Shown in pieces: positions 3,497-64,000 of a stretch of 64,000 nt of DNA. The notes beneath the pieces are model-generated. The model did no database searches. It was given only the letters and a program-made list of their open reading frames with translations, and had not been told where the DNA came from. The translations under genes and the position numbers were made by a program. Origin of the DNA: Tragulus kanchil. Its lineage: Eukaryota > Chordata > Mammalia > Artiodactyla > Tragulidae. The stretch lies in the NCBI GenBank assembly GCA_022376925.1, contig JAIOJX010000025.1, forward strand, positions 97,057,608-97,121,607, read 5' to 3'. Position 1 is the stretch's first letter. Every line of letters begins with the position of its first letter.

Positions 3497-4200
3497 TGTT
3501 TAGTTGCTAAGTCCTGTCCGACTCTTTGCAACCCCATGGACTGCAGCATGTCAGGTTTCCATTGTCACCACCTCCTCCTCTTGCCCTCATTCTTCCCCAG
3601 CATCAGGATCTTTTCCAAAGAGTTGGCTCTTCACGTCAGCTGACCAAATATTGGAGCTTCAGCATCAGTTCTTCCAATGAATATTCAGGGATGATTTTCT
3701 TTAGGATTGACTGGTTTTATCTGCTTGCAGTCCAAACAACTCTCAAGTATCTTCTCCAGCATGACAGTTTGAAAGCACCAATTCTTTGGTGTTCAATCAT
3801 CTTTATGGTCCAACTCTCACATCTGTACATGGCTACTGGAAAAACATAGTTTTGAGTATATGGATCTTTGTCTGCAAAATGATGTCTTTGCTTTTTAATA
3901 TGTTGTTTATGTTTCCCATAGTTTTTCTTCCAAGGAGCAAGTGTCTAATTTCATGGTTGCAGTCACTGACTGTAGTGATTCTGGAGCCCAAGAAAATAAA
4001 ATCTGTCATTGTTTCCATTTTTATCCCATCTATTTTCTATGAAGTGATGGAACGAGATGCCATGATCTTAGTTTTTTGAATGCTGAGTTTAAGCCAGCTT
4101 TGTTACTCTCCTCTTTCATCTCATCAAGAGGTTCTTTAGTTCCTCTTCTCTTTCTGCCATTTGAGTGGTATCATTTACATAGATCTAGCTCTAATATAAC
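3497..4200 (-). mobile_element. BovB LINE fragment (ART2A-like), reverse transcriptase region
   Basis: The plus strand is the antisense form of the 5' ART2A/BovB sequence common in ruminant genomes (gactctttgcaaccccatgg, agcatcagg, tccaactctcacatctg, ccaaggagcaag). On the minus strand a 61-codon frame (3833-4018) contains LLLGRKTMGNINNILKSKDI, matching the C-terminal part of the BovB reverse transcriptase. The frame is broken on both sides, so it is a dead fragment. The part from 3778 onward is repeated at 4890-5312 because of the local duplication. Confidence 0.88.
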
Positions 4201-4233
4201 CCCCTCCAGGTAATCTTCTTTGATGCTCTGGAT

Positions 4234-4447
4234 CAGTGGTTCTCAAATGTGATTTTTGTCTCATTTTTTGCTTAGGGACACTTGATAACATCTAGAGACA
4301 TTTTTTGGTTGTCCCGACTTGGAAGGATGGAGAGTTTACTACTGACATCTGGCAGGTAGAGGTCAGGTATTGTTCTACAATGCCTAGAACAACATCAAAT
4401 ATGTACCTAGTCCAAAATATCTGTAGTACTGAGGCTGAGAAACCCTG
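4234..4447 (+). mobile_element. MER5A-type hAT-Charlie element
   Basis: Starts cagtggttctcaaa and ends ctgagaaaccctg, the terminal inverted repeats of MER5-type nonautonomous hAT elements. The interior has acattttttggttgtc, ctggcaggtagaggtcagg and caaaatatctgtagtactgagg in the expected order. Eight-base flanks (ctctggat and ctctaatc) are compatible with an old target duplication. Repeated at 5346-5559. Confidence 0.82.
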
Positions 4448-4608
4448 CTCTAATCTGTGAGAAGTCCCTTTTATTTTTCTCCCGATTGCTTCTGTATTAC
4501 TACTTACCACAGTGTTTATTGTCTGTTTTTCCTCTCACGAGGAGCTGTTGTGTTCTTGGACAAGGAATTTCCTTTTCATTTCTATTTCCTCACAACCAGT
4601 GGCTTGCA

Positions 4609-4633
4609 TGTGTGTGTGTATGTGTGTGTGTTC
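4609..4633. repeat. Short TG microsatellite
   Basis: Imperfect TG run interrupted by TA. Repeated at 5721-5745 within copy 2. Confidence 0.8.
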
Positions 4634-5345
4634 CATAAATACTGAACAAAATAAATGGTAAAGATCTGCTTGAATATATAACTGAACTTAAAAATAAACT
4701 TATATGCCATGTTTTGTGGTGAGCAGATGGGCTAACCTGAGATCTCAATCGATTCATGGACTTTCAGTGGGGTGAGATGTTACTGCAGCCTGAAAGGCAT
4801 AATATGAAATAATCCATCACAGACATAGGGTCAGCCTCCAGAGGGGAAAGAGAAAAAAACTACGTTTATCTCTTGCCAATTGGAAGGAACCAATTCTTTG
4901 GTGTTCAATCATCTTTATGGTCCAACTCTCACATCTGTACATGGCTACTGGAAAAACATAGTTTTGAGTATATGGATCTTTGTCTGCAAAATGATGTCTT
5001 TGCTTTTTAATATGTTGTTTATGTTTCCCATAGTTTTTCTTCCAAGGAGCAAGTGTCTAATTTCATGGTTGCAGTCACTGACTGTAGTGATTCTGGAGCC
5101 CAAGAAAATAAAATCTGTCATTGTTTCCATTTTTATCCCATCTATTTTCTATGAAGTGATGGAACGAGATGCCATGATCTTAGTTTTTTGAATGCTGAGT
5201 TTAAGCCAGCTTTGTTACTCTCCTCTTTCATCTCATCAAGAGGTTCTTTAGTTCCTCTTCTCTTTCTGCCATTTGAGTGGTATCATTTACATAGATCTAG
5301 CTCTAATATAACCCCCTCCAGGTAATCTTCTTTGATGCTCTGGAT

Positions 5346-5559
5346 CAGTGGTTCTCAAATGTGATTTTTGTCTCATTTTTTGCTTAGGGACACTTGATAA
5401 CATCTAGAGACATTTTTTGGTTGTCCCGACTTGGAAGGATGGAGAGTTTACTACTGACATCTGGCAGGTAGAGGTCAGGTATTGTTCTACAATGCCTAGA
5501 ACAACATCAAATATGTACCTAGTCCAAAATATCTGTAGTACTGAGGCTGAGAAACCCTG
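5346..5559 (+). mobile_element. MER5A-type hAT element, second copy
   Basis: Identical counterpart of the element at 4234-4447. It is present because of duplication 1, not because of independent insertion. Confidence 0.82.
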
Positions 5560-6001
5560 CTCTAATCTGTGAGAAGTCCCTTTTATTTTTCTCCCGATTG
5601 CTTCTGTATTACTACTTACCACAGTGTTTATTGTCTGTTTTTCCTCTCACGAGGAGCTGTTGTGTTCTTGGACAAGGAATTTCCTTTTCATTTCTATTTC
5701 CTCACAACCAGTGGCTTGCATGTGTGTGTGTATGTGTGTGTGTTCCATAAATACTGAACAAAATAAATGGTAAAGATCTGCTTGAATATATAACTGAACT
5801 TAAAAATAAACTTATATGCCATGTTTTGTGGTGAGCAGATGGGCTAACCTGAGATCTCAATCGATTCATGGACTTTCAGTGGGGTGAGATGTTACTGCAG
5901 CCTGAAAGGCATAATATGAAATAATCCATCACAGACATAGGGTCAGCCTCCAGAGGGGAAAGAGAAAAAAACTACGTTTATCTCTTGCCAATTGGAAGGA
6001 A

Positions 6002-7195
6002 CACAATTGACGGGAACCAGCTGGTTTTGAACTCTCCCAAAGACTGTGATCCATTTAATCAGTTTGGAATGCATCCATAACTTTGAAGGTAGATCAGGAA
6101 GGATGGGAAGTATGGACAAAGTCAGCTAAGACCGGCAATCTCCCCATTTAAAATATTTGATGTAAGAGACACAGTGATTAAAATAGAAAAAGCTATGTAC
6201 CTAGGGTTAAGGGTAAGGGTAGGAAGATGGTCATTCTTTATGATTTTGAAAACTGACAAAATGTGTTTAGTTTGGAATGATCTGAGAAACCTCACATAAC
6301 TCAGTCTGTATACCATTTCACTAACAGTGAGGGAAAATAATCAAATCTGCAGTTCCTGCTTTCTATCTGTCATCTAAGTCATTCCAGGGACAGTAATCCT
6401 GGGTAGTGTCTTTCAGTTGGAGCCATTTCCCGGGAGAGGCAGAGTTATTAATAAGACGCTGCAAGCTTGTGTCCTCCTGTTTTTGATTTTCCCTCTTTCT
6501 AATGCAGTTTCACTGATCTCTTGGAAGTGAGACTTATGCGGGATGTTCTTCCTTGCTCGCACTTTCCAAATGTGTTCCCTAAACTAAAATACTGTACCAT
6601 GTGCAAAATTCAGGTGGAGGAGATTAGAAATAATCTCTTACATTTGTATGGGATACTCCTGAAGAGCACATACTACATTTGCTTTCTTTTAGTCTCACAT
6701 TACCAAATTGATTCACTTGCCTTTCCTTATTTTCAAAACTGGCAACCCCTCCATAATTTTAATTTCAATTATCCTTATTTCTTCTCAGGCCCTTAATGCT
6801 TTTACCCTTTAACACCCCAACTTGGTGTTTCTTGAAGCCCAATGAGTCTTAGAATCCACTGACACTTCATTTTTACTGTCACTTTCCCCTCATGACCTCG
6901 CTAAATCATCATTGGCTCCAAGGGTTCATTACTCATCTCTTTCATCCTCCCTCAACCCCTCTACCATTCTTTCTCCTTTTTATATTTGCCTGGATGAACA
7001 TCCACCCTGCTTAATTCCAGCTCTCCTCCTCTTATGCATGTATACCTAAAGAGCAGGAGCTATCTGAAGAGGATTTTCCTTTCCCATTCCCACCTCCATA
7101 TATCCCATGAGTAATATCCAGTTTGACCAGTCTCCTTTCCAACTTACAACTTCTACCTTGTGACTTTTAACAATGCTTCAAAATTCGACTCAACT
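6002..7195. other. No recognisable gene; short TTAGGG-like stretch
   Basis: Unique-looking sequence. A small degenerate telomere-like tract (ctagggttaagggtaagggt) lies near 6200-6222. The 91-codon frame at 6521-6796 has no recognisable domain and low-complexity composition. Confidence 0.45.
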
Positions 7196-7408: not shown

Positions 7409-8139
7409 CATTCAATCTTCTACTATCTTAGATGACTATTTTAAATTTTCTTTCTTAAACCTTTAACAGTTGCTTCCTATCTCATACCAAGTCTTTGCTG
7501 TTACCCTTTTCTCTGCTTGATTAAAACATCAAAAGAAAGCAGAAAAGAAGAATCACATCTACTGTCCTCTCTGGGTGTGAGCCCATTTTATTCTGCATTC
7601 CCTCCTGTCTCTATGGATGAAATACCCATGTTTCTTTTTGAATCTGGCCTGACCTTTTGTACACTGGATCCCACCCTCTCTCCTCTAGGTAAGGAAAGGT
7701 TCCAGTAATCCTCTCCTGTACTATTAATTTGTTGGATTATTCAAGTCCATATAAATATACTGTAATACTTACCATCTTAAGAAAGAAAAAGAAAACCCTA
7801 TTCCTTGACCTCACATTCGTCTTTTGCTACATCTCCATTCCTCTGCCCCACTTACAGCAAATCTGAGAGAGTTATTTGTGTTTATTACCTCCTTTCCTCT
7901 CCTTCTGTCCTTTCTTCAGCCTACTCCCATTAGATTTTTATCCCCACCGTTCTACTACAGCAGCTCATTAGAATCAACCTACTGCAGATGCCTTTTTGCT
8001 GTCAACCCCAATACTTATGTTAGTCCCCGTCTCTGCAATATTTAAGGAAGTTGATAACAGTGTCCTTTTAGTCATATGACCTCCACATGACTCCTAGGAT
8101 TCCCCTGTCTTGTTACCTTCTTTATCACTGGCTGATCCT
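7409..8139. other. No recognisable feature
   Basis: C/T-rich unique-looking sequence. The 73-codon frame at 7824-8045 (and its copy at 8957-9178) is Leu/Ser/Pro-rich with no domain I recognise. Confidence 0.45.
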
Positions 8140-8465
8140 TCTCTGGCTCATGATTTCATGGTCTGCAGGTGAAATTGCTTATTTTCAGAGTCCTTCTGTG
8201 ATCAGCCTATTAAAAATTGTGACCATATCACAATGACCCTTAGCCCCATTACCTGCTTTATTTTCCCCATAGCAGTTGGAACAGTAAAACTTATTATATA
8301 GTTCTGTATGTTTCTGTTCATATTTTCTCCCATCACTAAAACATAAGCTCTGTGTGTACAGAGATGCTGTTCTGTTCACAGAGATATTGTACTGTTCACT
8401 GTTGTGTTTCTCACATGTAGTAGATACTCAGAAAACAGAACTGAACGAATTGTATGAAAGGATGG
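8140..8465 (+). repeat. L2 LINE 3' end
   Basis: Shows the L2 3' order: agagtccttctgtgatcagcc, then attacctgctttattttcc, atagcagttggaaca, cactaaaacataagctc, cacatgtagtagatactcag. Divergence is high, as expected for this old family. Repeated at 9273-9598 within copy 2 of duplication 2. Confidence 0.78.
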
Positions 8466-9272
8466 GTTCTTTATATCCTTCTGCACATAGTCATATGAGA
8501 TGTTTTTTTTTTTCCCTGAAGAGATTAACATTCAAAATAGCTAAGTGATCTGTGAAAAGTCATACCTTAGGTAAGAAGCAAACACCCAAAAAGACATTCC
8601 ACCACAATTTTTTGAGGATTGCTATCAAACTTCTGCTTAACCCCGAGTTATGAGAGCCTAACAAAAGCCTACCCTATTCAACTGCTGAGGGCTCTGTTTT
8701 TTAAAAAATGAAATGCAATTAGCAGAAAGAAGAATCCATCTCTGTACCTTTATCTGCATTTTGTCTAGGCCTTTTCTCGGCCTGACCTTTTGTACACTGG
8801 ATCCCACCCTCTCTCCTCTAGGTAAGGAAAGGTTCCAGTAATCCTCTCCTGTACTATTAATTTGTTGGATTATTCAAGTCCATATAAATATACTGTAATA
8901 CTTACCATCTTAAGACAGAAAAAGAAACCCCTATTCCTTGACCTCACATTCGTCTTTTGCTACATCTCCATTCCTCTGCCCCACTTACAGCAAATCTGAG
9001 AGAGTTATTTGTGTTTATTACCTCCTTTCCTCTCCTTCTGTCCTTTCTTCAGCCTACTCCCATTAGATTTTTATCCCCACCGTTCTACTACAGCAGCTCA
9101 TTAGAATCAACCTACTGCAGATGCCTTTTTGCTGTCAACCCCAATACTTATGTTAGTCCCCGTCTCTGCAATATTTAAGGAAGTTGATAACAGTGTCCTT
9201 TTAGTCATATGACCTCCACATGACTCCTAGGATTCCCCTGTCTTGTTACCTTCTTTATCACTGGCTGATCCT

Positions 9273-9598
9273 TCTCTGGCTCATGATTTCATGGTCTGCA
9301 GGTGAAATTGCTTATTTTCAGAGTCCTTCTGTGATCAGCCTATTAAAAATTGTGACCATATCACAATGACCCTTAGCCCCATTACCTGCTTTATTTTCCC
9401 CATAGCAGTTGGAACAGTAAAACTTATTATATAGTTCTGTATGTTTCTGTTCATATTTTCTCCCATCACTAAAACATAAGCTCTGTGTGTACAGAGATGC
9501 TGTTCTGTTCACAGAGATATTGTACTGTTCACTGTTGTGTTTCTCACATGTAGTAGATACTCAGAAAACAGAACTGAACGAATTGTATGAAAGGATGG
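9273..9598 (+). repeat. L2 LINE 3' end, second copy
   Basis: Same sequence as 8140-8465, present through duplication 2. Confidence 0.78.
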
Positions 9599-9861
9599 GT
9601 TCTTTATATCCTTCTGCACATAGTCATATGAGATGTTTTTTTTTTTCCCTGAAGAGATTAACATTCAAAATAGCTAAGTGATCTGTGAAAAGTCATACCT
9701 TAGGTAAGAAGCAAACACCCAAAAAGACATTCCACCACAATTTTTTGAGGATTGCTATCAAACTTCTGCTTAACCCCGAGTTATGAGAGCCTAACAAAAG
9801 CCTACCCTATTCAACTGCTGAGGGGCTCTGTCTGTTAGTAAGTTCACTTATATACATTGAG

Positions 9862-11536: not shown

Positions 11537-12539
11537 AGAATATTTAGAACAAATGACATTGCCAACAGCTCAGGCCACCTTATGGAGACATTTGGCCATT
11601 TCCATCTGAGAAATGCTTCACAGGCTGGGTAGGTTTCCCTAAAAAGATAGGCTGAAGTATGCACATGGTTTTAATGGTTTCTGAACTGAAAATCACTGTA
11701 AGTAACTGCCATTAGGTGTTTGTGCTAACCAGAAAATTCATCAGTTGATGAAATATTCCAAACCTGTGAGGGCTTCATCTTCCTGCAAACTCCAACAGCC
11801 ACTGGGATGAGGGGTGGGCCTTCAGCAGCAGAATGTACAGGAGCTGATGTAGAAACCTTCATCCATCTCCTCTCCCTTCTCTCATTTCATACCTTCCCCT
11901 GAGCAAGCCCATTCTGTGTCTTTCCTTTCTATTCATATAAAGATATCTACAAATTTGCATGCAAAGCTTTGTCCCATGAACCACAGCCTGGCCGTCATTG
12001 GATAACACCTAGTTTCTCAGGAATCAGGCTGTATATAATAGTAAGTGACATGGCAATGAGGTTCTTTCTTTTCTAATTTTCTTTCAGTCCTCTTGCTTAG
12101 ACAGAATCTTAAGTCCTAGGCTAGATGTTCTAATACTTATTTAACACTTTTACCTCTCTCTTTCCAAAGAGGAAGTGCTAGCTCGGCAACTTTCAGCAGC
12201 CAACAGTATCTAGGTATAATTTAGTAGTATTGCTTACTTTTCACTATACTTTTTATGCATACTCTGTGTTGCAAACTGAGCTGTTTTTCCTTTGGTGTAA
12301 CTGGGTATAAACTTTAATCCATAAACCAATTTATTTCTGTTAAAATTGTGAGTTGAATTCCTGTGGAGATTTTAAGTAAATAACAGTAACTATGATGCAC
12401 GGATAGGGCAGAACTCATGTGGAAGGTATTTCAATGACTGTAGTCCAGCAAGCATTTGATTTTGAGGGCTGAAATTAGAGTACAATGTAGTAATGCTTCT
12501 TAACTTTAACGTATAATAACGTATAATTTAACTAACTCG
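11537..12539. other. Unique-looking non-coding sequence
   Basis: No gene or repeat identified. Most of it, from 11668, is repeated at 12788 onward by duplication 3. Confidence 0.45.
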
Positions 12540-13909
12540 AGATCTAGTTAAAATAAAGATTCTCATTCAGTAGACCTGGGATGGATTATAAGACCTAAAG
12601 GTGCTTCCAGCAAGTTTTAGGATCATGCTGGGTGACTGGTCATACTAGTACTGGGGACGCCTTTCAAGGAAAGGACCTGATACCTCTCGCTCTTCCTGGT
12701 CTCAGACTCACCAAGGGCTCACACTCTAGCATGGGGTCAACACTGATTGTAATAATTGGGTTGTTACATGTCCCTATTTTATCCATAGTTTTAATGGTTT
12801 CTGAACTGAAAATCACTGTAAGTAACTGCCATTAGGTGTTTGTGCTAACCAGAAAATTCATCAGTTGATGAAATATTCCAAACCTGTGAGGGCTTCATCT
12901 TCCTGCAAACTCCAACAGCCACTGGGATGAGGGGTGGGCCTTCAGCAGCAGAATGTACAGGAGCTGATGTAGAAACCTTCATCCATCTCCTCTCCCTTCT
13001 CTCATTTCATACCTTCCCCTGAGCAAGCCCATTCTGTGTCTTTCCTTTCTATTCATATAAAGATATCTACAAATTTGCATGCAAAGCTTTGTCCCATGAA
13101 CCACAGCCTGGCCGTCATTGGATAACACCTAGTTTCTCAGGAATCAGGCTGTATATAATAGTAAGTGACATGGCAATGAGGTTCTTTCTTTTCTAATTTT
13201 CTTTCAGTCCTCTTGCTTAGACAGAATCTTAAGTCCTAGGCTAGATGTTCTAATACTTATTTAACACTTTTACCTCTCTCTTTCCAAAGAGGAAGTGCTA
13301 GCTCGGCAACTTTCAGCAGCCAACAGTATCTAGGTATAATTTAGTAGTATTGCTTACTTTTCACTATACTTTTTATGCATACTCTGTGTTGCAAACTGAG
13401 CTGTTTTTCCTTTGGTGTAACTGGGTATAAACTTTAATCCATAAACCAATTTATTTCTGTTAAAATTGTGAGTTGAATTCCTGTGGAGATTTTAAGTAAA
13501 TAACAGTAACTATGATGCACGGATAGGGCAGAACTCATGTGGAAGGTATTTCAATGACTGTAGTCCAGCAAGCATTTGATTTTGAGGGCTGAAATTAGAG
13601 TACAATGTAGTAATGCTTCTTAACTTTAACGTATAATAACGTATAATTTAACTAACTCGAGATCTAGTTAAAATAAAGATTCTCATTCAGTAGACCTGGG
13701 ATGGATTATAAGACCTAAGGTGCTTCCAGCAAGTTTTAGGATCATGCTGGGTGACTGGTCATACTAGTACTGTGGACGTCTTTCAAGGAAAGGACCTGAT
13801 ACCTCTTGCTCTTCCTGATCTCAGACTCACCAAGGGCTCACACTGTAGCATGGGGTCAACACTGATTGTAGTAATTGGGTTGTTACATGTCCCTATTTTA
13901 TCCATAGTT
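11668..13909. repeat. Direct ~1.1 kb duplication 3 (period 1120)
   Basis: Copy 1 is 11668-12787 and copy 2 is 12788-13909, directly adjacent. I saw no differences over the first ~930 bp. About seven differences then sit in the last ~190 bp of copy 1 (for example ctggggacgcc against ctgtggacgtc). A third copy of that end (14654 onward) agrees with copy 2, so copy 1 is the odd one. Confidence 0.97.
12540..12660 (-). repeat. MER5-type hAT fragment
   Basis: Carries gattctcattcagtagacctggg and then gcttccagcaagttttagga, in the order of the MER5A1/MER5B interior. Also present at about 13660-13780 and 14750-14870 because of duplications 3 and 4. Confidence 0.5.
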
Positions 13910-14455
13910 CTTAAAATTTAGTGTTTTTCAAAATCACCTACAATGTTTGTTAAAGCATGAATTACTGGACCCATCCAGATAGTTTATGGTTAAGCAGGTC
14001 TCAGAAATGGCTTGAGGAGCTGCATTTCTTTTTTTTTTTTTTTTTTTTGAGGGAAGGTCCTTTTATTATTATTATTATTATTTTTTATTTTTGGGCGGGG
14101 GTCGGGTTAGGGAGGGAGGGGAGCGGGCGGGCCACTTCTATTGGTCTTTCATTTCTCTGTTTTCATCCATCTTTGTTCTTTGGCTCCCGTGGGCCTCCCA
14201 TCGCGGTGGCGTCTGTCGCTGCAAAGCGCCGGCTCTGGGCGCATGCGCTCCAGAGCTCCGGCTCGGTGATTAGACACATCGGTCCAGCCGCTCCGCGGCA
14301 CATGGGATCTTCCCAGGTCAGGGCTCGAACTGGCACCCCTTGTATTGCAAGGCGGTGTCCTTACCCACTGGACCACCAGGGGAAGCCCAGAGGAGTTGCA
14401 TTTCTAACAAGTTTCAGAAAATGGTGATACTGCTTGTCTAGGGACCAGACTATAC
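13893..14455 (-). mobile_element. MER5-type hAT element split by a CHR SINE
   Basis: The outer parts follow MER5 (tttcaaaatcacctacaatgt, gttaaagcatgaattactgg, ggttaagcaggtctcag, then tttctaacaagtttcag, gatactgcttgtctaggga). The SINE at 14030-14389 interrupts it at gcatttct. Repeated at 14982-15541. Confidence 0.75.
14030..14389 (-). mobile_element. CHR-type tRNA-Glu SINE inside a MER5-type element
   Basis: A minus-strand SINE with long poly-T and an ATT microsatellite at the tail side. The body has gggcctcccatcgcggtgg and ggcgcatgcgctccagagc. The tRNA-like head ends ggaccaccaggggaagccc. Target duplication of 16 bp with one mismatch: gaggagctgcatttct (14014-14029) and gaggagttgcatttct (14390-14405). 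The 156-codon plus-strand frame at 13957-14427 is produced by this insertion and is not a gene. Repeated at 15119-15475. Confidence 0.9.
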
Positions 14456-15118
14456 ATAAACTTTACAAGTGGATGTGTGAGTATCAAACAGTGGGAACAC
14501 AGCATTATCAGGAAGGACAGCACTCATTCTGACTATGGTGCCACTCCTTTGTTCTCCAAACATTCAAGACTTCTTTAAAGCTTCAGCAGGAATGCCAAGG
14601 TAACTGGTAGAGACTGAGTGGGGTCCCATCACCCCAATGTGGATTTGACTGTACCAGCAAGCATTTGATTTTGAGGGCTGAAATTAGAGTACAATGTAGT
14701 AATGCTTCTTAACTTTAACGTATAATAACGTATAATTTAACTAACTCGAGATCTAGTTAAAATAAAGATTCTCATTCAGTAGACCTGGGATGGATTATAA
14801 GACCTAAGGTGCTTCCAGCAAGTTTTAGGATCATGCTGGGTGACTGGTCATACTAGTACTGTGGACGTCTTTCAAGGAAAGGACCTGATACCTCTTGCTC
14901 TTCCTGATCTCAGACTCACCAAGGGCTCACACTGTAGCATGGGGTCAACACTGATTGTAGTAATTGGGTTGTTACATGTCCCTATTTTATCCATAGTTCT
15001 TAAAATTTAGTGTTTTTCAAAATCACCTACAATGTTTGTTAAAGCATGAATTACTGGACCCATCCAGATAGTTTATGGTTAAGCAGGTCTCAGAAATGGC
15101 TTGAGGAGCTGCATTTCT

Positions 15119-15475
15119 TTTTTTTTTTTTTTTTTTTGAGGGAAGGTCCTTTTATTATTATTATTATTATTTTTTATTTTTGGGCGGGGGTCGGGTTAGG
15201 GAGGGAGGGAGCGGCGGCCACTTCTATTGGTCTTTCATTTCTCTGTTTTCATCCATCTTTGTTCTTTGGCTCCCGTGGGCCTCCCATCGCGGTGGCGTCT
15301 GTCGCTGCAAAGCGCCGGCTCTGGGCGCATGCGCTCCAGAGCTCCGGCTCGGTGATTAGACACATCGGTCCAGCCGCTCCGCGGCACATGGGATCTTCCC
15401 AGGTCAGGGCTCGAACTGGCACCCCTTGTATTGCAAGGCGGTGTCCTTACCCACTGGACCACCAGGGGAAGCCCA
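15119..15475 (-). mobile_element. CHR-type SINE, second copy
   Basis: Counterpart of 14030-14389 in copy 2 of duplication 4, about 3 bp shorter in a G-rich run. Confidence 0.9.
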
Positions 15476-15760
15476 GAGGAGTTGCATTTCTAACAAGTTT
15501 CAGAAAATGGTGATACTGCTTGTCTAGGGACCAGACTATACATAAACTTTACAAGTGGATGTGTGAGTATCAAACAGTGGGAACACAGCATTATCAGGAA
15601 GGACAGCACTCATTCTGACTATGGTGCCACTCCTTTGTTCTCCAAACATTCAAGACTTCTTTAAAGCTTCAGCAGGAATGCCAAGGTAACTGGTAGAGAC
15701 TGAGTGGGGTCCCATCACCCCAAGTTTTGCTTTCTCATACATCCCAGGTGCATGTATACA

Positions 15761-16203: not shown

Positions 16204-16574
16204 GTAGTGTAGTGGTAGGGAGCCAACAGTAGATGTAGTTTCCTAGCCATATGTCACATTAATATGCCTAACATCTTGTGACTATGATAGAGTTTTTTGT
16301 AGTGTGGCAAATACATCTATTTGTGAATGCCCAATTCAGACATAATGTCAGGACACCTAAGCACCAACTTGCATTGTAATTCTTTTTCTTTCACCTGGAT
16401 ATGTCACACTGTAGTACGTATATATTCTATAGTGTGTAATAGTATATATATTATAATTTATAAAATAACAACAATAATAGTAACAAATTTAAAATTTGCT
16501 GTGAGGATTAAAAGAAAAATAATACCTATAGAGTAGAGTATTTCATTACAACACTAGGACCAATCAATATTAAT

Positions 16575-45640: not shown

Positions 45641-45659
45641 CTCCCTCTGCTACACACAC

Positions 45660-50415: not shown

Positions 50416-52602
50416 AAGATAAGAGGGTCTTTTTTTCTCATATATAATTTCACTAAAATAAGTAGGTCAGAGTTTCAAATCCCAGTAGATTTTCTGGTGC
50501 ACCATATTCCTTTTTGTTTCTCTTTCACTCCTTGTAGTGTACTACTGGGTGCTTGACAAAGCTAATTCACCATCCTGATGCATACATCCCAGCCTATGGA
50601 AAGGAAGAAAAGAGGACAAAGACAAAAAAATAAACTTCTTTGTAGGGATACCATGTAGGATTTTAACACATCACTCTAACCACATTTATTGGACAGAATT
50701 TAGTCAAGGGGCTTTAACTAGTTGCAAGGATGCTTGAGACATATAATGTTTAATCAGAAAGCTATGTGCTCAGTGGAAACCCAGAGGTTTAATTATTAAA
50801 ATAGAGAAAGGAAGAATGGGTACTAGGGAATAATTAGCAATCTGTATCACATGCATACCATTGCAGCAATTCTCTAAGGGTGATCTTATTGTCCACATTC
50901 AATGGATAGGATAGTTGAAATTCAGAGAGAGGAAATTACTTGTCAAAAGTCACTTAAATGTGTAGATCAAAGAAGAAGGGCAATTACAATCAAAGCAGGC
51001 ACTATACTAGGTTCTCAGCTATAAAAGAGAAGGGAAAAATAGCTACTTGATATTGTTTTGCGACCCATCAGAAAACGGACTGCTGCAGTGTTCACGTGTC
51101 ATCGGCAAGGCTGTGTTTTACAGGCAATCTTGTGGGAGCTGACATAACAGGAAGAAAATTAAATCATTGAATGTAGTTGCTAGAGTTAAGCCCTTGGAAG
51201 GGGGAAAAAAAGCATGATTTGTTTTCAATTACATGATTATACAGGTCTCAAAGATTCTCCTTTCTGTCCTGGGTAGTTAAAATTTCCATTCTTTTTGACC
51301 ATGAGCTTTCAGTTGGATTTTCAGCTTGAGAGAACATTTTTAGCTTGAGAATACAAGTAATATAAAATTACACACAAAACAAATTCAGCTCTGAAAATAT
51401 GGGGATGACAAGATAATAAAAAATGTAGGAGCAAAAAGATTGGACAAGGCCTATCAATTTGCCAAAATTTTGAGGTCAGATATCCATGGACCATGAAACT
51501 AGCAGTCAGGAAGGTTTCATTAAGATAAGAGGGTCTTTTCTCATATATAATTTCACTAAAATAAGTAGGTCAGAGTTTCAAATCCCAGTAGATTTTCTGG
51601 TGCACCATATTCCTTTTTGTTTCTCTTTCACTCCTTGTAGTGTACTACTGGGTGCTTGACAAAGCTAATTCACCATCCTGATGCATACATCCCAGCCTAT
51701 GGAAAGGAAGAAAAGAGGACAAAGACAAAAAAATAAACTTCTTTGTAGGGATACCATGTAGGATTTTAACACATCACTCTAACCACATTTATTGGACAGA
51801 ATTTAGTCAAGGGGCTTTAACTAGTTGCAAGGATGCTTGAGACATATAATGTTTAATCAGAAAGCTATGTGCTCAGTGGAAACCCAGAGGTTTAATTATT
51901 AAAATAGAGAAAGGAAGAATGGGTACTAGGGAATAATTAGCAATCTGTATCACATGCATACCATTGCAGCAATTCTCTAAGGGTGATCTTATTGTCCACA
52001 TTCAATGGATAGGATAGTTGAAATTCAGAGAGGGAAATTACTTGTCAAAAGTCACTTAAATGTGTAGATCAAAGAAGAAGGGCAATTACAATCAAAGCAG
52101 GCACTATACTAGGTTCTCAGCTATAAAAGAGAAGGGAAAAATAGCTACTTGATATTGTTTTGCGACCCATCAGAAAACGGACTGCTGCAGTGTTCACGTG
52201 TCATCGGCAAGGCTGTGTTTTACAGGCAATCTTGTGGGAGCTGACATAACAGGAAGAAAATTAAATCATTGAATGTAGTTGCTAGAGTTAAGCCCTTGGA
52301 AGGGGGAAAAAAAGCATGATTTGTTTTCAATTACATGATTATACAGGTCTCAAAGATTCTCCTTTCTGTCCTGGGTAGTTAAAATTTCCATTCTTTTTGA
52401 CCATGAGCTTTCAGTTGGATTTTCAGCTTGAGAGAACATTTTTAGCTTGAGAATACAAGTAATATAAAATTACACACAAAACAAATTCAGCTCTGAAAAT
52501 ATGGGGATGACAAGATAATAAAAAATGTAGGAGCAAAAAGATTGGACAAGGCCTATCAATTTGCCAAAATTTTGAGGTCAGATATCCATGGACCATGAAA
52601 CT
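50416..52602. repeat. Direct ~1.1 kb duplication 16 (period 1102-1106)
   Basis: Copy 1 is 50416-51500 and copy 2 is 51522-52602, with a 21-bp filler. Copy 2 lacks three T in a T-run within its first 25 bp and one GA in a GA run. It contains a MIR-like piece near 50880-51000 and otherwise unique-looking DNA. Confidence 0.96.
51020..51260. promoter_or_regulatory. Possible conserved non-coding element
   Basis: Repeat-free, comparatively balanced base composition with several CpG and a CACGTG E-box (in gttcacgtgtcatc, near 51095). Distinct from the AT-rich flanks. A regulatory role is inference only. Repeated at about 52125-52365. Confidence 0.2.
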
Positions 52603-53159
52603 GTTTAAAAATTGCTCTGGATAAATAAATATGTGTTTGTAAAACTTGCTTACAGAGTGATTTTTTGCACTTTATATCTAGGCAAATGGTAGAAAATTAA
52701 GATAAAAAATTTCTTGTGATGACAACAACATGAATGCTAAGGTATATATCCATACTGAAAGATGACTTATTCAGCATGGGAATGCATTTCTAGGCACACT
52801 CAATTATCACATAATTTGTAGTACTTCTTCCGGGCATTAAATTTTTTCAATCAGCTATCTAATTTTATTTTGGAGTTCTTACCTTTTACAATGCTTTTAC
52901 TTTTTTCATTATATTAGAAAAACTCAATTAGATTCACTGATTTTGACATTCTTCTTTATCCTGTGAATTTCCCTTAAAGATAGGTTGCCTATAGACTTTG
53001 CTGGTAGGTAACTTTGGATGGAAATATGTTTTCAAAGAAGGAAACAAATATTCCACACCAAATACCTAAATTTGAAAACAGAAGATGTCCCTATATACTG
53101 AGAATCATAGTCAGAAAGAGAACCTCAGTTTATTTCTTTGATGTAAGTAATTGACTAAT
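52603..53159. other. No recognisable feature
   Basis: AT-rich unique-looking sequence, repeated in copy 2 of duplication 17. Confidence 0.45.
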
Positions 53160-53385
53160 GGGCTTCCCAGATGGTGCTAGTGGTAAAGAACACACCTGCC
53201 ATTATAGGAGAGTTGAGAGATGCAACTTTGATCCTTGGGTTGGGAAGATTCCCTGGAGGAGGCCGTGGCAATCCACTCCAGTATTCTTGCCTGGAGAATC
53301 CCATGGACAGAGGAACCTGGTGGTCTACCATCCATAGGATTGCAAAGAGTCAGGCGTGACTAAAGTGACTTAGCATGCACATACA
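53160..53385 (+). mobile_element. Bov-tA SINE
   Basis: gggcttcccagatggtgcta, gatccttgggttgggaagat, actccagtattcttgcctgg, gagaatcccatggacagagg, acctggtggtctaccatcc. The 62-codon frame inside is SINE-derived. Repeated at 54279-54504. Confidence 0.93.
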
Positions 53386-54924
53386 CAGTTGATGAATATC
53401 AATGACAAAAAAGAAAATGATGTGATCCCAGCATCTCCTATTACAGTGGTCACCTCTAAGATTCCTTCCCATCTTCTAATCCTCCTGTAATCAAGCAGGA
53501 GCCTATGGACCTCTCACAGAACAGGCCTTCTCCCAGAACTACTTTAGCTCCTCCGTGAAGTGCCTAGGTAATAGAATTTGATGTTTTATTTCCTGAGTTG
53601 TTTTGCAGATAAGCTCTGAATGGGGATGACAAGATAATAAAAAATGTAGGAGCAAAAAGATTGGACAAGGCCTATCAATTTGCCAAAATTTTGAGGTCAG
53701 ATATCCATGGACCATGAAACTGTTTAAAAATTGCTCTGGATAAATAAATATGTGTTTGTAAAACTTGCTTACAGAGTGATTTTTTGCACTTTATATCTAG
53801 GCAAATGGTAGAAAATTAAGATAAAAAATTTCTTGTGATGACAACAACATGAATGCTAAGGTATATATCCATACTGAAAGATGACTTATTCAGCATGGGA
53901 ATGCATTTCTAGGCACACTCAATTATCACATAATTTGTAGTACTTCTTCCGGGCATTAAATTTTTTCAATCAGCTATCTAATTTTATTTTGGAGTTCTTA
54001 CCTTTTACAATGCTTTTACTTTTTTCATTATATTAGAAAAACTCAATTAGATTCACTGATTTTGACATTCTTCTTTATCCTGTGAATTTCCCTTAAAGAT
54101 AGGTTGCCTATAGACTTTGCTGGTAGGTAACTTTGGATGGAAATATGTTTTCAAAGAAGGAAACAAATATTCCACACCAAATACCTAAATTTGAAAACAG
54201 AAGATGTCCCTATATACTGAGAATCATAGTCAGAAAGAGAACCTCAGTTTATTTCTTTGATGTAAGTAATTGACTAATGGGCTTCCCAGATGGTGCTAGT
54301 GGTAAAGAACACACCTGCCATTATAGGAGAGTTGAGAGATGCAACTTTGATCCTTGGGTTGGGAAGATTCCCTGGAGGAGGCCGTGGCAATCCACTCCAG
54401 TATTCTTGCCTGGAGAATCCCATGGACAGAGGAACCTGGTGGTCTACCATCCATAGGATTGCAAAGAGTCAGGCGTGACTAAAGTGACTTAGCATGCACA
54501 TACACAGTTGATGAATATCAATGACAAAAAAGAAAATGATGTGATCCCAGCATCTCCTATTACAGTGGTCACCTCTAAGATTCCTTCCCATCTTCTAATC
54601 CTCCTGTAATCAAGCAGGAGCCTATGGACCTCTCACAGAACAGGCCTTCTCCCAGAACTACTTTAGCTCCTCCGTGAAGTGCCTAGGTAATAGAATTTGA
54701 TGTTTTATTTCCTGAGTTGTTTTGCAGATGTAACCAGGCCCCCCAAAACAAATGGAAGACATTAACTATTTGATGACCATGAGCACATCGTCTCATGGCT
54801 TCCTGGAGCCTAAGAGCTGAGAAAGTTAGCACCTGTGACATCATGCTGCTATCTCATTATTAACCAGAGCCTTGTGCCCAAGCTGATCACAGATCTACAA
54901 TTCCCTTCTCTCACCTAGCTTTTA

Positions 54925-55183
54925 TTTATTTTTTAAATTTTAGCCTTTTTTTATTGGTCCTTCATTTATTTTCATCCATCTTGACTATTTGGCCTGTATG
55001 GGCCTCCTATCACAGCAGCCTCTCATCGCAGAGCACAGGCTCCAGGCACATGCGCTCCAGAGCTCTGGCTCATAACTGGACACACCACTTCCTGGCACGT
55101 GGGATCCTCCCGTGCTAGTAATCGAACCGGTGCCCCTTGCAGTGCAAGGTGGACTCTTTACCCACTGGACCGGCAGGGTAGCC
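54925..55183 (-). mobile_element. CHR-type SINE with target duplication
   Basis: Minus-strand SINE: tttattggtccttcatttat, tgggcctcctatcacagcag, ggcacatgcgctccagagc, then a head ending actggaccggcagggtagcc. Flanks ctcacctagctttta (54910-54924) and ctcacctggctttta (55184-55198), 15 bp with one mismatch. The 119-codon minus frame here is SINE-derived. Repeated at 56032-56290. Confidence 0.92.
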
Positions 55184-55198
55184 CTCACCTGGCTTTTA

Positions 55199-55840
55199 GA
55201 AGTGCTTTTCTGAAACCCTTCAGTGAATTTGGGGCTTTTTAGCGCATTAGCCACCCATCTGCTTGCATGGCCCTGAAATAAACCTTTCACTGCTCCAAAC
55301 TCAGATGTTTTCATTTGTTTGGCCTCACTGTGTGTTGGGCACACAAACTTGCATTAACACCCACACCCATCAAAAGCTAATGAGGAAATTCAAAATTCTG
55401 GGCTGAACAACCTTTAGAAAAATTTCTCCCTTTGGTTATCAGTCAGTATTTGAGTAACAGATGCTCATTGTTTCCTGTAATATAATGATTTTCTAGTGTG
55501 CAGAATTAAGCAAAATATTGAACTGTGAGAATGAAAAAATGGAATTAAACACTGTGTAGATTAATTTTAGTAGTTGATAAAATCCATACCTCTAAAAATC
55601 GTATTCTTTATTTTTCATGCTTTTCTGATATTGATCTTGGACTCCTTATATTTTCACGCTGCTACTATCTCTTGCTAGTTTGCCATGTTCTAATCTCATA
55701 TATAACCTAAGATGTAGAATTACAGAAACATAGAATGGAAAAATTGCTTCAAATTTGAGTCCCCGTGACACAAGGGCAACTGGCCAATTCAATGGTAAAC
55801 ATCCATCAGACCGTGGCCAAGATTTTTAGACCATGTTTAA
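55199..55840. other. No recognisable feature
   Basis: AT-rich unique-looking sequence; repeated in copy 2 of duplication 18. Confidence 0.45.
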
Positions 55841-56606
55841 AACCAGGCCCCCAAACAAATGGAAGACATTAACTATTTGATGACCATGAGCACATCGTCT
55901 CATGGCTTCCTGGAGCCTAAGAGCTGAGAAAGTTAGCACCTGTGACATCATGCTGCTATCTCATTATTAACCAGAGCCTTGTGCCCAAGCTGATCACAGA
56001 TCTACAATTCCCTTCTCTCACCTAGCTTTTATTTATTTTTTAAATTTTAGCCTTTTTTTATTGGTCCTTCATTTATTTTCATCCATCTTGACTATTTGGC
56101 CTGTATGGGCCTCCTATCACAGCAGCCTCTCATCGCAGAGCACAGGCTCCAGGCACATGCGCTCCAGAGCTCTGGCTCATAACTGGACACACCACTTCCT
56201 GGCACGTGGGATCCTCCCGTGCTAGTAATCGAACCGGTGCCCCTTGCAGTGCAAGGTGGACTCTTTACCCACTGGACCGGCAGGGTAGCCCTCACCTGGC
56301 TTTTAGAAGTGCTTTTCTGAAACCCTTCAGTGAATTTGGGGCTTTTTAGCGCATTAGCCACCCATCTGCTTGCATGGCCCTGAAATAAACCTTTCACTGC
56401 TCCAAACTCAGATGTTTTCATTTGTTTGGCCTCACTGTGTGTTGGGCACACAAACTTGCATTAACACCCACACCCATCAAAAGCTAATGAGGAAATTCAA
56501 AATTCTGGGCTGAACAACCTTTAGAAAAATTTCTCCCTTTGGTTATCAGTCAGTATTTGAGTAACAGATGCTCATTGTTTCCTGTAATATAATGATTTTC
56601 TAGTGT

Positions 56607-58738
56607 GCAGAATTAAGCAAAATATTGAACTGTGAGAATGAAAAAATGGAATTAAACACTGTGTAGATTAATTTTAGTAGTTGATAAAATCCATACCTCT
56701 AAAAATCGTATTCTTTATTTTTCATGCTTTTCTGATATTGATCTTGGACTCCTTATATTTTCACGCTGCTACTATCTCTTGCTAGTTTGCCATGTTCTAA
56801 TCTCATATATAACCTAAGATGTAGAATTACAGAAACATAGAATGGAAAAATTGCTTCAAATTTGAGTCCCCATGACACAAGGGCACTAAAGCAGGTGGCC
56901 AATTCAATGGTAAACATCCATCAGACCCACTTGTTGAATGCTGAGCAATGAAGACAACTGCTTGATGGGGTGGATTTTCCACTTGACAGTAGGTTACTGT
57001 TTGACACTGTAAGGCAGAATGTGTGTGAGTGTTTCTGCAGACGTATTACCTCCCCTAAGGGTGCCTCTAACCTGCACAGAGAAGTCTGCTCATCTGTCTT
57101 ATAGTGACTGCATATCAAGGGCTCCCTTTTTCTTGAGTACCCAGGCATTTTACTAATCAATATGCTACTTGGAATTAAAGATATTTTAGACAGGCAATTG
57201 TGCTTTCTGATGCTTAATCTCTTTTGATCATATATCATTACTCATTTAATGTAGCTTGAATTAGATTATTTTAAAATTGATTCAATTAAGTGTAATCTAC
57301 AGATCATTTAAAGGCATTTACTATATTGTATTATATTAATGTATAATAGTTGTACTGAATGAGTACCTAATATGTGCCTGGCATTATACTAAATTGAGAG
57401 ACTATCATGCTAACAAGAGTCTGAATGTTAGATATTTGTCACCTCCATTTAAAGATGCTGTATCTGAGACAGATGTTTAACAGAGAGGTTACATATCTTT
57501 TCCAGTGCTACAGAGCATATAAAAGGCAGACAGAGCTGGGATTTGAAGCCATGGCTGGCAAATTGCAATTCTGACATGTTTAATCATTATTCTACAGTTT
57601 CCTGAATGATTTTGACTTTTCTCACAAGGGACCGTGGTCACTATGGTTGTTATGTACTAAAAGTGGTACTATGTTTTTCTGTTTTTATTGTTTTGCAGAA
57701 TTAAGCAAAATATTGAACTGTGAGAATGAAAAAATGGAATTAAACACTGTGTAGATTAATTTTAGTAGTTGATAAAATCCATACCTCTAAAAATCGTATT
57801 CTTTATTTTTCATGCTTTTCTGATATTGATCTTGGACTCCTTATATTTTCACGCTGCTACTATCTCTTGCTAGTTTGCCATGTTCTAATCTCATATATAA
57901 CCTAAGATGTAGAATTACAGAAACATAGAATGGAAAAATTGCTTCAAATTTGAGTCCCCATGACACAAGGGCACTAAAGCAGGTGGCCAATTCAATGGTA
58001 AACATCCATCAGACCCACTTGTTGAATGCTGAGCAATGAAGACAACTGCTTGATGGGGTGGATTTTCCACTTGACAGTAGGTTACTGTTTGACACTGTAA
58101 GGCAGAATGTGTGTGAGTGTTTCTGCAGACGTATTACCTCCCCTAAGGGTGCCTCTAACCTGCACAGAGAAGTCTGCTCATCTGTCTTATAGTGACTGCA
58201 TATCAAGGGCTCCCTTTTTCTTGAGTACCCAGGCATTTTACTAATCAATATGCTACTTGGAATTAAAGATATTTTAGACAGGCAATTGTGCTTTCTGATG
58301 CTTAATCTCTTTTGATCATATATCATTACTCATTTAATGTAGCTTGAATTAGATTATTTTAAAATTGATTCAATTAAGTGTAATCTACAGATCATTTAAA
58401 GGCATTTACTATATTGTATTATATTAATGTATAATAGTTGTACTGAATGAGTACCTAATATGTGCCTGGCATTATACTAAATTGAGAGACTATCATGCTA
58501 ACAAGAGTCTGAATGTTAGATATTTGTCACCTCCATTTAAAGATGCTGTATCTGAGACAGATGTTTAACAGAGAGGTTACATATCTTTTCCAGTGCTACA
58601 GAGCATATAAAAGGCAGACAGAGCTGGGATTTGAAGCCATGGCTGGCAAATTGCAATTCTGACATGTTTAATCATTATTCTACAGTTTCCTGAATGATTT
58701 TGACTTTTCTCACAAGGGACCGTGGTCACTATGGTTAG
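56607..58738. repeat. Direct ~1.09 kb duplication 19 (period 1088)
   Basis: Copy 1 is 56607-57660 and copy 2 is 57695-58738. The end of copy 1 and the ~35-bp filler look like a degraded reading of sequence following copy 2 (ttgttatgtactaaaagtgg against tagtttatgtactagtgtgt). The first ~300 bp also occur at 55499, making three copies. Confidence 0.96.
57350..57600 (-). repeat. MIR SINE
   Basis: Antisense MIR order: gagtacctaatatgtgcctg, cagagaggttacatatcttt, aggcagacagagctgggatttgaagcc. Repeated at 58438-58688. Confidence 0.75.
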
Positions 58739-59953
58739 TTTATGTACTAGTGTGTGTAAAATATGTGTTTATTTGCTCTCATCACCATTTCCTCTATTTT
58801 CTAAGAAAGGGGTTACATTGTTCTATATGTTTATAACTAAAAATCATGTCTTTAATCATCTTTGTATATATTAGATGTCCTCCTTGTCTTGAATAAAAAA
58901 ACTCTAGAGAAAAATTCAGATTAGAATTTTCTTGAACCATGTTAAAGAGAAAGTTTAAGTTATTAATTTTTAGCATTTTAAAGACATATGAAATATCTGG
59001 AAGGCTAGGGTTTTATTTGGCTTAAACCCTTGGCCCTGCTTTTCACCCCAGACTCACCTGGGACCTAAGAATCACTGTGCAAATTTTGTGAGTGGGCATA
59101 TTTGAGTATTTTTTAAGTGCATTTTTTCTTGTCTTTCAGTTTCATATCTGTATTTCCAAATGAGTGTGCATTTCTATGTGAGTAAACATCAACCTACTTT
59201 TTCCCCACAGTGGTGATTTTATTTCCAATGAGGTCTGTAATAGATTTGGGGTAACTTCTAATATTTAAGAGAATTCAAATCATACTTGAAGAGAATTCAA
59301 CATTAACCCTTTTGCTTGTCAATATTCTACCATGCCCAGGTCCCTCTACCTACTTTTTTCTGACTAAATCATAAGCATTCTCAGAGCCAATTTTCCAAAT
59401 TTTACTTTGAAATTTTTATTTGATCAGCAGCCTCAAGATCTAAGGGGGATTACATTTCTCTCTTTTATTTTTCTCGAACTAGCATAAATAATCCTCTTTG
59501 TGATAATACCCTGTCTTCCAGCATACTTGTTTATCATAAGAGGACTCTTATTTCCATGGACTAATGCACTCAGAAGCTTGGCTGACTTTCTGATGCAAAT
59601 GTCAGACAGGAACCATGTCTTTGCTTTTCCAGCCAAATTGCCTCATTTTTACAACACTGTGCTTGATTTATAGGGGTCTTTGAAATATTGAAATTGCCCC
59701 CTGCACTAAAAGAAATGCATCCTGTAGGCATTTTAGTATAGAAACATTAATAAGAATAATTTATAGGGGAAATGGGTTGCAGGGTTTTGGAAAATATTCA
59801 ACTCTGAGCAAAATATGGCAGTGTCAATGAACAACACTGACATTCTAAAGGGAGGTACGTTTATTGAGGGATAGCCAGAGCCAATCCCAAAAGAATGTCA
59901 TAATTTCTTAGTTTGGATTTAAATAACCCTTATAGAAATAGTTTAAAAAAGGG
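58739..59953. other. No recognisable feature
   Basis: Single-copy AT-rich sequence with no gene or named repeat. One of the longer unduplicated stretches. Confidence 0.45.
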
Positions 59954-62207
59954 AACATAAGAAATCAATTCATTTTTGTGTTTCTTATAGTATGTTTCAT
60001 TTTTATTGATAAATGGTCCAAAGTGACCATCAACCATATCCTTACTCAAAAATAGAATTTATATCTCATTTAGGCATTTAACTGGGGAACATAGCTATGT
60101 CTATAGAGGAAATGGGAAGACTGAAGAAAGAGACTAATTGATTGTATGTGTTCAACATGGCAGGAATAGGGACAGACAGCTTATAAGTCTTTTAAAATTT
60201 CAGTCCTTCCATATAACATCAGACATGGGTGTTAGTGTTTACATGTTATGGGTCAAGTGACATTCCTAGAATCTCATGGTTACTAAATCTTGGATCAAAT
60301 ATGCAATTCCTAGAACACTTTGGCGTGAGGGGAAGAGAAGGAATAAAATAATTAGTTCAAAAATAAACTTATTTTGTCTATAGCTCATTAAATATGAAAG
60401 TATTCCTATATCCAGTGAGTCACAATTATGTTTTTCCAAATACATGATATAATTTCAATACCAATTGGTATGTTAGTGTTATAGGAACGGAGAGTCGATT
60501 CTGGCAACATAATTTTTATCTCTCTTTATAGTAGTTTCATAATGGTTTTATGTAATAATTAAATAGTTTTATGAGTATTTAATGGTCAGAGGGAGTCTTT
60601 CAAAATGCTTTAAACAAGAACTATGCATGACAATAGACACATGGCAATAGAAATGAAAGTAGTAGGTAGAAGTGAGAGATTGAAAAATTTAGAAAGGCGT
60701 TGGAAAAACCAAGAAAATGAGAAAATTAAAGGAGAGGAAGGGGGAAATCTTGATTAAATCCAGTGCCTTTAGGATATAGATTGCTTCTGGATAATTTTAT
60801 TCATTTGTGTTTGGTCATTTTGAGAGATCATTATTTTTTGAACAGTGACTATAGACCAACCTTTATTCTGGACAATAAAGCTACAGAGTTCCGTGAGCTT
60901 AGAGATATATGTTGGTCTCAAGACATGGGTCATTGGGATTCAGCATGAGTGAACAACAAAGGACTTTTAACTGAAATTTAAAACATCAGGAAAGATTTCT
61001 TCAAGGAAGGGATAATTAAGCTGGACTGAGACTAGAGAGGTAAAGATGGGTTAACTAAAGACAACAAGTTTGAGCAGAGAACATAAGAAATCAATTCATT
61101 TTGTGTTTCTTATAGTATGTTTCATTTTATTGATAAATGGTCCAAAGTGACCATCAACCATATCCTTACTCAAAAATAGAATTTATATCTCATTTAGGCA
61201 TTTAACTGGGGAACATAGCTATGTCTATAGAGGAAATGGGAAGACTGAAGAAAGAGACTAATTGATTGTATGTGTTCAACATGGCAGGAATAGGGACAGA
61301 CAGCTTATAAGTCTTTTAAAATTTCAGTCCTTCCATATAACATCAGACATGGGTGTTAGTGTTTACATGTTATGGGTCAAGTGACATTCCTAGAATCTCA
61401 TGGTTACTAAATCTTGGATCAAATATGCAATTCCTAGAACACTTTGGCGTGAGGGGAAGAGAAGGAATAAAATAATTAGTTCAAAAATAAACTTATTTTG
61501 TCTATAGCTCATTAAATATGAAAGTATTCCTATATCCAGTGAGTCACAATTATGTTTTTCCAAATACATGATATAATTTCAATACCAATTGGTATGTTAG
61601 TGTTATAGGAACGGAGAGTCGATTCTGGCAACATAATTTTTATCTCTCTTTATAGTAGTTTCATAATGGTTTTATGTAATAATTAAATAGTTTTATGAGT
61701 ATTTAATGGTCAGAGGGAGTCTTTCAAAATGCTTTAAACAAGAACTATGCATGACAATAGACACATGGCAATAGAAATGAAAGTAGTAGGTAGAAGTGAG
61801 AGATTGAAAAATTTAGAAAGGCGTTGGAAAAACCAAGAAAATGAGAAAATTAAAGGAGAGGAAGGGGGAAATCTTGATTAAATCCAGTGCCTTTAGGATA
61901 TAGATTGCTTCTGGATAATTTTATTCATTTGTGTTTGGTCATTTTGAGAGATCATTATTTTTTGAACAGTGACTATAGACCAACCTTTATTCTGGACAAT
62001 AAAGCTACAGAGTTCCGTGAGCTTAGAGATATATGTTGGTCTCAAGACATGGGTCATTGGGATTCAGCATGAGTGAACAACAAAGGACTTTTAACTGAAA
62101 TTTAAAACATCAGGAAAGATTTCTTCAAGGAAGGGATAATTAAGCTGGACTGAGACTAGAGAGGTAAAGATGGGTTAACTAAAGACAACAAGTTTGAGCA
62201 GAGAACA
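59954..62207. repeat. Direct ~1.13 kb duplication 20 (period 1124-1126)
   Basis: Copy 1 is 59954-61079 and copy 2 is 61080-62207, adjacent. Copy 2 has shortened T-runs twice in its first 50 bp. The right part (from ~60990) has gaaagatttcttcaagga and related pieces resembling the unnamed ancient repeat at 16575. The rest is unique-looking. Confidence 0.97.
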
Positions 62208-62530
62208 TAGAGTGTTCCAGGCACATTCTTTCCTGTGCAGTGTCCATAAGAGAGAGCAAAATGGCACAGTCTAAGAGATTTAACTTGTTTGGAATTCCAG
62301 GAGTGTAGAATGAGAGGACACAGGAAATAGGACCAGTGGACCTACTAAGAGGCTATCCAGTATTTCTTTCATTAAAGCAAACATCATTATTACCTTGTGA
62401 TTATATCATTCATCTCTTGTCTACTCAAAAACATTTATTATATGCTCTGACATTTAATGTGAGTGTTTTATAATGAAAATATTATTTTACAAGTTCCTAG
62501 TGAGAAATGGAATATTTATGCCATAACAGT
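62208..62530. other. Unassigned, possible old repeat
   Basis: agtgttccaggcacattctt and following bases may continue the ancient repeat seen at 60990-61079. Otherwise nothing recognised. Confidence 0.35.
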
Positions 62531-62539
62531 AAACAAAAG

Positions 62540-62995
62540 ATATCATAGCCATCAGTGACTGCAGCCCTCCAATGTGAGCTGGTGAGCCCTGAGGGCACTC
62601 AGTAAGGAAGCGAATATATGCCATCAGACTGCAGCCACTCTCCTTGGTGAGCCTGGAGAAACCTCAGGATGTAAAAACAAAGGATACTGGCCTGAGATTT
62701 CTGAGATACATATCAAAGGAATGATTTCAGTAAGCTCAGACTTTCCTATCTTCCCATGCATAGAAAAATCACTAAATTCCCTAATTTGGCATATCTGGTT
62801 TTCTTTAGCTTAGAGTACTTTTTAGATGTTCCAACTATCTGCCCTTTGTTGCAAAACTTCTATGTAACCTGGCTGCCTCTCCTTACTGCCTCTGAACAGT
62901 TCTCTCAGAGTTACTTGAGCTGCTCCTTCTTGAGCTTGAAGTCCTGAAAATTCCCACCAGATAAAACATAACTCTGAACTCTTAGGTTGTACATA
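62540..62995 (+). mobile_element. Probable ruminant LTR
   Basis: The 3' part (ttgagctgctccttcttgag, cttgaagtcctgaaaattcc, ccagataaaacataactctg, cttaggttgtacat) resembles the R/U5 end of ruminant endogenous retrovirus LTRs. The 5' end and target duplication were not located, and no viral genes adjoin it. The first part recurs from 63660. Confidence 0.4.
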
Positions 62996-63600
62996 AATTT
63001 TAGATTGATATTAGTGGAGTTTGAGAAAACACCCTCCTGTGTTTCTCCTTTTTCACACACTCATAGTACTTGTGACACCAGATACATGTTTTTCCCACAC
63101 ATCAACTAATCATTTGTGACACTGTGTGACCCGTAATTCCATGCAATTTTATCATTATCTACTTGGAATTATCATCAAATCACACAAGTTAACTGTGCTC
63201 AGTTCCACAATATCGCCCCCAATTGACATACCAATTGCAAGTCCTGGGGTGTCTGCAACCTGTACTTCTGACTGACTAGAAATTGGGGTTTCTATGACAC
63301 CCTTGTTAGGAATGGCTCACAGAACTTGGAGAACACTTACACTTACCGGTTTAGTTTGAAGAATATAAATAAAGGGTACAGATAAACAGATGAAGAGATA
63401 CTATGTGGTCATGTTCACCAACTCAGAAGCTTTTCAAACATCGCATTTTTTGGATTCTTATGGGGGCTTTATCAAGTAGGTCTGATCACTCATTAACTCA
63501 GTCTCCTGTCCCTTTCTCTCTTCCTTGAGAGCAGGGAGTCTCTAAGCTACTAGGCAGGGCTTGATCTTTCTGTTAACCAGCTGCCATCCTTGAGAGCAGG
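62996..63600 (-). repeat. Possible old LTR (MaLR-like)
   Basis: Pieces such as gttcaccaactcagaagctt, tttttggattcttatggggg and tttatcaagtaggtctgatc are in the antisense order of an old mammalian LTR family. The family is not assigned. Confidence 0.4.
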
Positions 63601-64000
63601 GAAAATATTATTTTACAAGTTCCTAGTGAGAAATGGAATATTTATGCCATAACAGTAAACAAAAGATATCATAGCCATCAGTGACTGCAGCCCTCCAATG
63701 TGAGCTGGTGAGCCCTGAGGGCACTCAGTAAGGAAGCGAATATATGCCATCAGACTGCAGCCACTCTCCTTGGTGAGCCTGGAGAAACCTCAGGATGTAA
63801 AAACAAAGGATACTGGCCTGAGATTTCTGAGATACATATCAAAGGAATGATTTCAGTAAGCTCAGACTTTCCTATCTTCCCATGCATAGAAAAATCACTA
63901 AATTCCCTAATTTGGCATATCTGGTTTTCTTTAGCTTAGAGTACTTTTTAGATGTTCCAACTATCTGCCCTTTGTTGCAAAACTTCTATGTAACCTGGCT

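Follow-up and report, generated by a model that had tools for sequence, protein, structure and literature searches.

A series of 21 near-identical direct repeats of about 1.1 kb in Tragulus kanchil DNA, probably left by unmerged assembly overlaps

The 64,000-bp stretch of Tragulus kanchil DNA analysed here (the window) contains 21 near-identical direct repeats that are almost certainly not real in the animal: they are very probably false duplications from the assembly of long reads, in which successive consensus pieces would have been written out in series with their overlaps left unmerged. This reading is preferred because the length of the overlap is constant whatever its content (20 pairs, mean 1110 bp, sd 22.5), because differences in triple-covered places are private to the tails or heads of pieces (none to a middle), because differences between copies are enriched near the copy ends, and because the junction of one pair carries altered continuations of both outer flanks. 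The series is without biological significance, and serves as a warning on assembly.

Count, size and spacing of the repeats

Exact-seed self-comparison followed by local alignment places the repeats between positions 3777 and 64000 (Table 1). Twenty of the 21 pairs are complete; the last is cut by the end of the window and visible for 400 bp only. Among the complete pairs, the period ranges from 1075 to 1161 bp (mean 1110.0, sd 22.5, n = 20), the length of copy 1 from 1021 to 1173 bp, and the spacing from copy 1 to copy 2 from -12 bp (an overlap) to +81 bp (a gap). Identity between copies is 98.60-100%. A total of 21,171 20-mers recur in the window, and none in any of five order-1 shuffles; the window contains no Ns.

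These values bear out the sequence-only reading made earlier of this DNA, which had listed 21 direct duplications of about 1.1 kb lying head to tail or within 85 bp of each other: its 21 periods agree with the re-measured ones within 0-4 bp, and the collapsed length it proposed, about 41 kb, is re-computed as 40,674 bp with the cut pair taken at its full period, or as 41,400 bp with that pair taken at the 400 bp visible. It had also described the units as mutually unrelated, which is true of most but not of all. In an all-against-all comparison of the 21 units, six neighboring pairs (3/4, 9/10, 11/12, 14/15, 16/17, and 18/19) overlap as tiles, with short stretches there present three times; outside these tile overlaps, cross-matches are either diverged (72-88%) or shorter than 40 bp. 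The absence of a common motif, likewise claimed, stands to the extent that no boundary motif is convincing, one of the four boundary types falling at 3.0% and one at 8.4% of random draws, uncorrected.

Table 1. Direct repeat pairs in the window, with coordinates of both copies.
Pair	Copy 1	Copy 2	Period (bp)	Identity (%)	Remarks
1	3777-4895	4889-6008	1112	99.91	
2	7646-8697	8779-9831	1133	99.72	81 bp between copies
3	11664-12790	12784-13909	1120	99.29	7 tail-private differences
4	13555-14637	14646-15723	1091	99.45	overlaps pair 3
5	16322-17342	17408-18425	1086	99.41	junction 17343-17407
6	19268-20348	20373-21455	1105	99.82	
7	22247-23344	23342-24441	1095	99.64	
8	25215-26311	26311-27405	1096	99.54	
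9	27822-28961	28951-30089	1129	99.82	
10	29820-30893	30895-31970	1075	99.35	overlaps pair 9
11	33000-34138	34140-35278	1140	100	
12	35056-36190	36188-37317	1132	99.47	overlaps pair 11
13	41720-42810	42810-43895	1090	99.36	
14	45109-46178	46192-47247	1083	98.60	copy 2 lacks 13 bp near its head
15	46974-48146	48135-49303	1161	99.49	overlaps pair 14
16	50416-51500	51522-52602	1106	99.63	
17	52489-53610	53612-54729	1123	99.64	overlaps pair 16
18	54732-55812	55841-56927	1109	98.80	4 tail-private differences
19	56606-57659	57694-58749	1088	99.72	overlaps pair 18
20	59953-61085	61079-62209	1126	99.82	
21	62475-62874	63601-64000	1126	100 (over 400 bp)	copy 2 cut by window end

The pieces lying between junctions are 1.85-6.6 kb long, and the part that each shares with the next is nearly constant at 1.1 kb. 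The longest junction-free interval between repeats, of about 4.4 kb, is at 37318-41719.

Differences between copies and sequence at the junctions

Differences between copies amount to about 2.5 events per kb. There are 66 differences in the 20 complete pairs (pair 21 was left out), of which 55 remain once the 11 nearest to the alignment ends (within 12 bp) are dropped. Seventeen of the 55 lie 12-60 bp from the copy ends, where 8.9% would be expected (p = 3.6e-6, with differences treated as independent); counted by pair, 10 of 20 have a difference in this zone, versus 3 of 20 in an equally wide zone at the center. The direction of these changes also depends on position. Within 100 bp of the copy ends, bases are missing from copy 1 in 11 cases and from copy 2 in one, versus three and eight, respectively, within the same distance of the starts (Fisher p = 0.003, untrimmed); after the 12-bp trim, the corresponding counts are 8 vs 0 at the ends and 3 vs 5 at the starts (p = 0.026), and with a 60-bp zone the trimmed comparison gives p = 0.07. 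Since the middle zone also favors an extra base in copy 1 (13 of 15 internal indels, i.e., those at least 60 bp from the copy ends; p = 0.007), it is the end zone alone that departs in this test of direction.

At internal substitutions, the base in copy 1 alone equals its neighbor in 15 of 23 cases, and the reverse is found in 4 of 23. The internal indel and substitution biases represent a systematic difference between the tails and heads of pieces. Internal differences are clustered: of the 38, 29 have a neighboring difference no more than 20 bp away (2.8 expected). Contact with a homopolymer of at least 4 bases is seen for 24 of the 38 (baseline 16.7%). In both respects they resemble errors in a long-read consensus, not parental alleles.

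Six places (1,560 columns) are covered three times, by pieces in succession, which allows each difference to be assigned to the tail, middle or head of a piece. With overlaps left unmerged, errors should be confined either to the first piece, in its tail, or to the third, in its head, and not to the middle of the second. Among the 17 differences found, 11 are tail-private, 6 head-private and none middle-private; the place shared by pairs 11 and 12 has no differences. The head-private differences are at columns 7-26, five of the six within 9 columns of the start of the piece, and the tail-private ones are all in two places, at columns 162-317 of 356 and 266-289 of 322. The probability of such a pattern by chance is 0.001 if all 17 differences are independent, 0.008 if those five head-private differences are dropped, and 0.09 if the count is by place, this last value being limited by the concentration of all 11 tail-private differences in two places. 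The pattern matches the prediction for unmerged overlaps, but is not strong when taken alone.

Piece ends, if degraded, are further predicted to contain sequence that lies beyond the overlap. In the junction of pair 5, positions 17348-17373 are identical to 18492-18517, a 26-bp exact match 66 bp past the end of copy 2, and positions 17371-17384 are identical to 16246-16259, a 14-bp exact match located before the start of copy 1; in a longest-match control, none of 300 random stretches equaled the first length, and one of 300 the second. The gap of pair 2 resembles sequence that precedes copy 1 (0.6% of random), and that of pair 6 has a 10-bp flank match (0.7% of random by longest match, 4.1% by score). 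The gaps of pairs 4, 14, 16, 18, and 19 gave no outer-flank signal (eight gaps of at least 8 bp tested, in 16 uncorrected comparisons), and a version of the test with shorter flanks is weaker throughout: 6.6% and 0.9% for pair 5, 4.2% for pair 2, and 17% for pair 6. A junction made by tandem duplication should be free of outside sequence; this expectation fails at pair 5, with weak signs of the same at pairs 2 and 6.

Origin of the repeats

In the proposed mechanism, assembly would have produced a succession of consensus pieces, about 1.85-6.6 kb long and each with about 1.1 kb in common with the next; if the shared part was not merged and the pieces were written out in series, every overlap would be present twice. 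Concatenation of overlaps without merging had already been suggested in the sequence-only reading, and the triple-covered places (weakly, when counted by place), the enrichment of differences near copy ends and the pair 5 junction all point to it. The overlapping elements had been taken for contigs or long reads; at 1.85-6.6 kb, the pieces look more like layout units than like either contigs or whole long reads. A plain duplicate of identical text, introduced in data handling, is ruled out, as at least one difference separates the copies in 19 of the 20 complete pairs.

False duplications of a related kind are known from the Vertebrate Genomes Project (VGP). According to excerpts from two reports, its “homotype” false duplications are near-identical, non-allelic, tied to contig boundaries and of differing consensus quality (PMC9516828, PMC8081667), and one example is attributed in such an excerpt to a bug in FALCON (PMC8081667). 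On its sequence, the present series appears to work like them. As described in those excerpts, the VGP copies are about as long as a read (PMC9516828, PMC8081667) and typically have gaps between them (PMC9516828), whereas the present copies keep to a constant length of 1.1 kb, 21 times in one window, and there are no Ns. Among the literature matches listed, as represented by title or start of abstract, none describes this failure or a constant 1.1-kb series, which is not proof of absence.

Two explanations outside unmerged overlaps need to be weighed. One is a heterotype false duplication, in which each of the two parental haplotypes would account for one copy. The number of differences between copies falls at a plausible level of heterozygosity, which is what such a duplication would give; the differences, however, are clustered, homopolymer-linked and concentrated near copy ends, none of the 17 in the triple-covered places is middle-private (with the by-place chance of 0.09 noted above), and a single common length is not expected of haplotype blocks. 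Parental haplotypes are therefore very improbable as the source. The other is that the animal really carries recent tandem duplications, made by some unknown process with a fixed 1.1-kb step. Both copies are, after all, present in the sequence as given, and in 12 of the 20 complete pairs any gap at the junction is 1 bp at most. Against this, there would have to be 21 repeats of one length in about 60 kb, with neither a common unit nor a convincing motif; anomalies are concentrated at the ends of pieces; and the pair 5 junction holds both outer flanks, for which tandem duplication gives no reason. Real duplication on these terms is barely credible. It would call for a genuine process, active at many unrelated sites, that duplicates a fixed length of about 1.1 kb and copies inaccurately at the edges, where parts of both outer flanks are drawn in; the chance that such a process exists is minute.

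If the repeats are unmerged overlaps, which program made them? Pieces of varying length with a shared part of fixed length suggest a graph with nodes of fixed size. The maker is likely a long-read assembler with a layout of this type, among which wtdbg2 fits best, with about an even chance of being the maker; the class of artefact does not depend on this identification. Its consensus program, wtpoa-cns, joins adjacent layout units that overlap by one node, and has an option for the expected overlap. Two adjacent edges would share one 1024-bp vertex, and if the consensus step failed to join them, each shared vertex would be written twice. In the literature, wtdbg2 (also called Redbean) is described as decomposing reads into 1024-bp segments that are merged into vertices (PMC7730629), as tiling reads in 256-bp bins (PMC9902641, PMC11831799), as built on a fuzzy Bruijn graph (PMC9848057), and as relying on wtpoa-cns as a second program for its consensus (PMC12037172).

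Adjacent layout units built on such vertices (PMC7730629), if left unjoined, would share about 1 kb, much as the pieces do here. The likeness is incomplete: the shared part (1075-1161 bp, mean 1110 bp) is 8% longer than a 1024-bp vertex, and the spacing of units has no 256-bp quantization (R = 0.087, p = 0.87, 19 spacings), although consensus indels could blur such steps. A scan of periods from 200 to 330 gives a best p of 0.25. The 256-bp steps are an expectation of the present analysis, drawn from the bin size. For wtdbg2 with Nanopore reads, passages of the Inspector report mention more collapses, not expansions (PMC8590762).

Another possibility, of the same artefact class and somewhat short of an even chance, is that a different step was responsible: a chunked polisher, gap filler or scaffolder that wrote chunks or contigs one after another with their overlaps kept. 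Any tool that cuts with an overlap of about 1 kb and fails to stitch would leave identical anatomy, and this possibility is favored by the two features that fit wtdbg2 poorly, namely that a 1024-bp node does not directly yield 1110 bp and that 256-bp quantization is absent. A polisher working in fixed chunks is unlikely, given the variation in piece length from 1.85 to 6.6 kb, and contigs or reads so short with a single constant overlap would be unusual.

Should the repeats indeed be unmerged overlaps, about 35% of the window is redundant (22,600 of 64,000 bp), and sequence of this kind would lead to wrong gene models, repeat counts and segmental-duplication calls. Self-alignment, which needs no reads, is enough to screen other assemblies for the signature of head-to-tail copies with a constant period.

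Other sequence content

No Rfam family is present in the window at the gathering threshold, and nine of the 12 stop-to-stop frames of at least 110 aa have no Pfam match, the other three being second copies of frames searched. One of the 21 units compared with phage records and one 26-base junction string compared with IMG/VR likewise gave no match. SINE-like peptides in the window are presumably ruminant. A fragment on the minus strand at 49909-50241 has no Pfam match, but matches the LINE-1 ORF2p of solved structures (E = 2.8e-31) and is a C-terminal fragment of LINE-1 ORF2; it supports a mammalian origin of the sequence. An inverted dispersed repeat is also present, at 29967-30382 and 35648-36069, the two parts being 76% identical over 427 bp.
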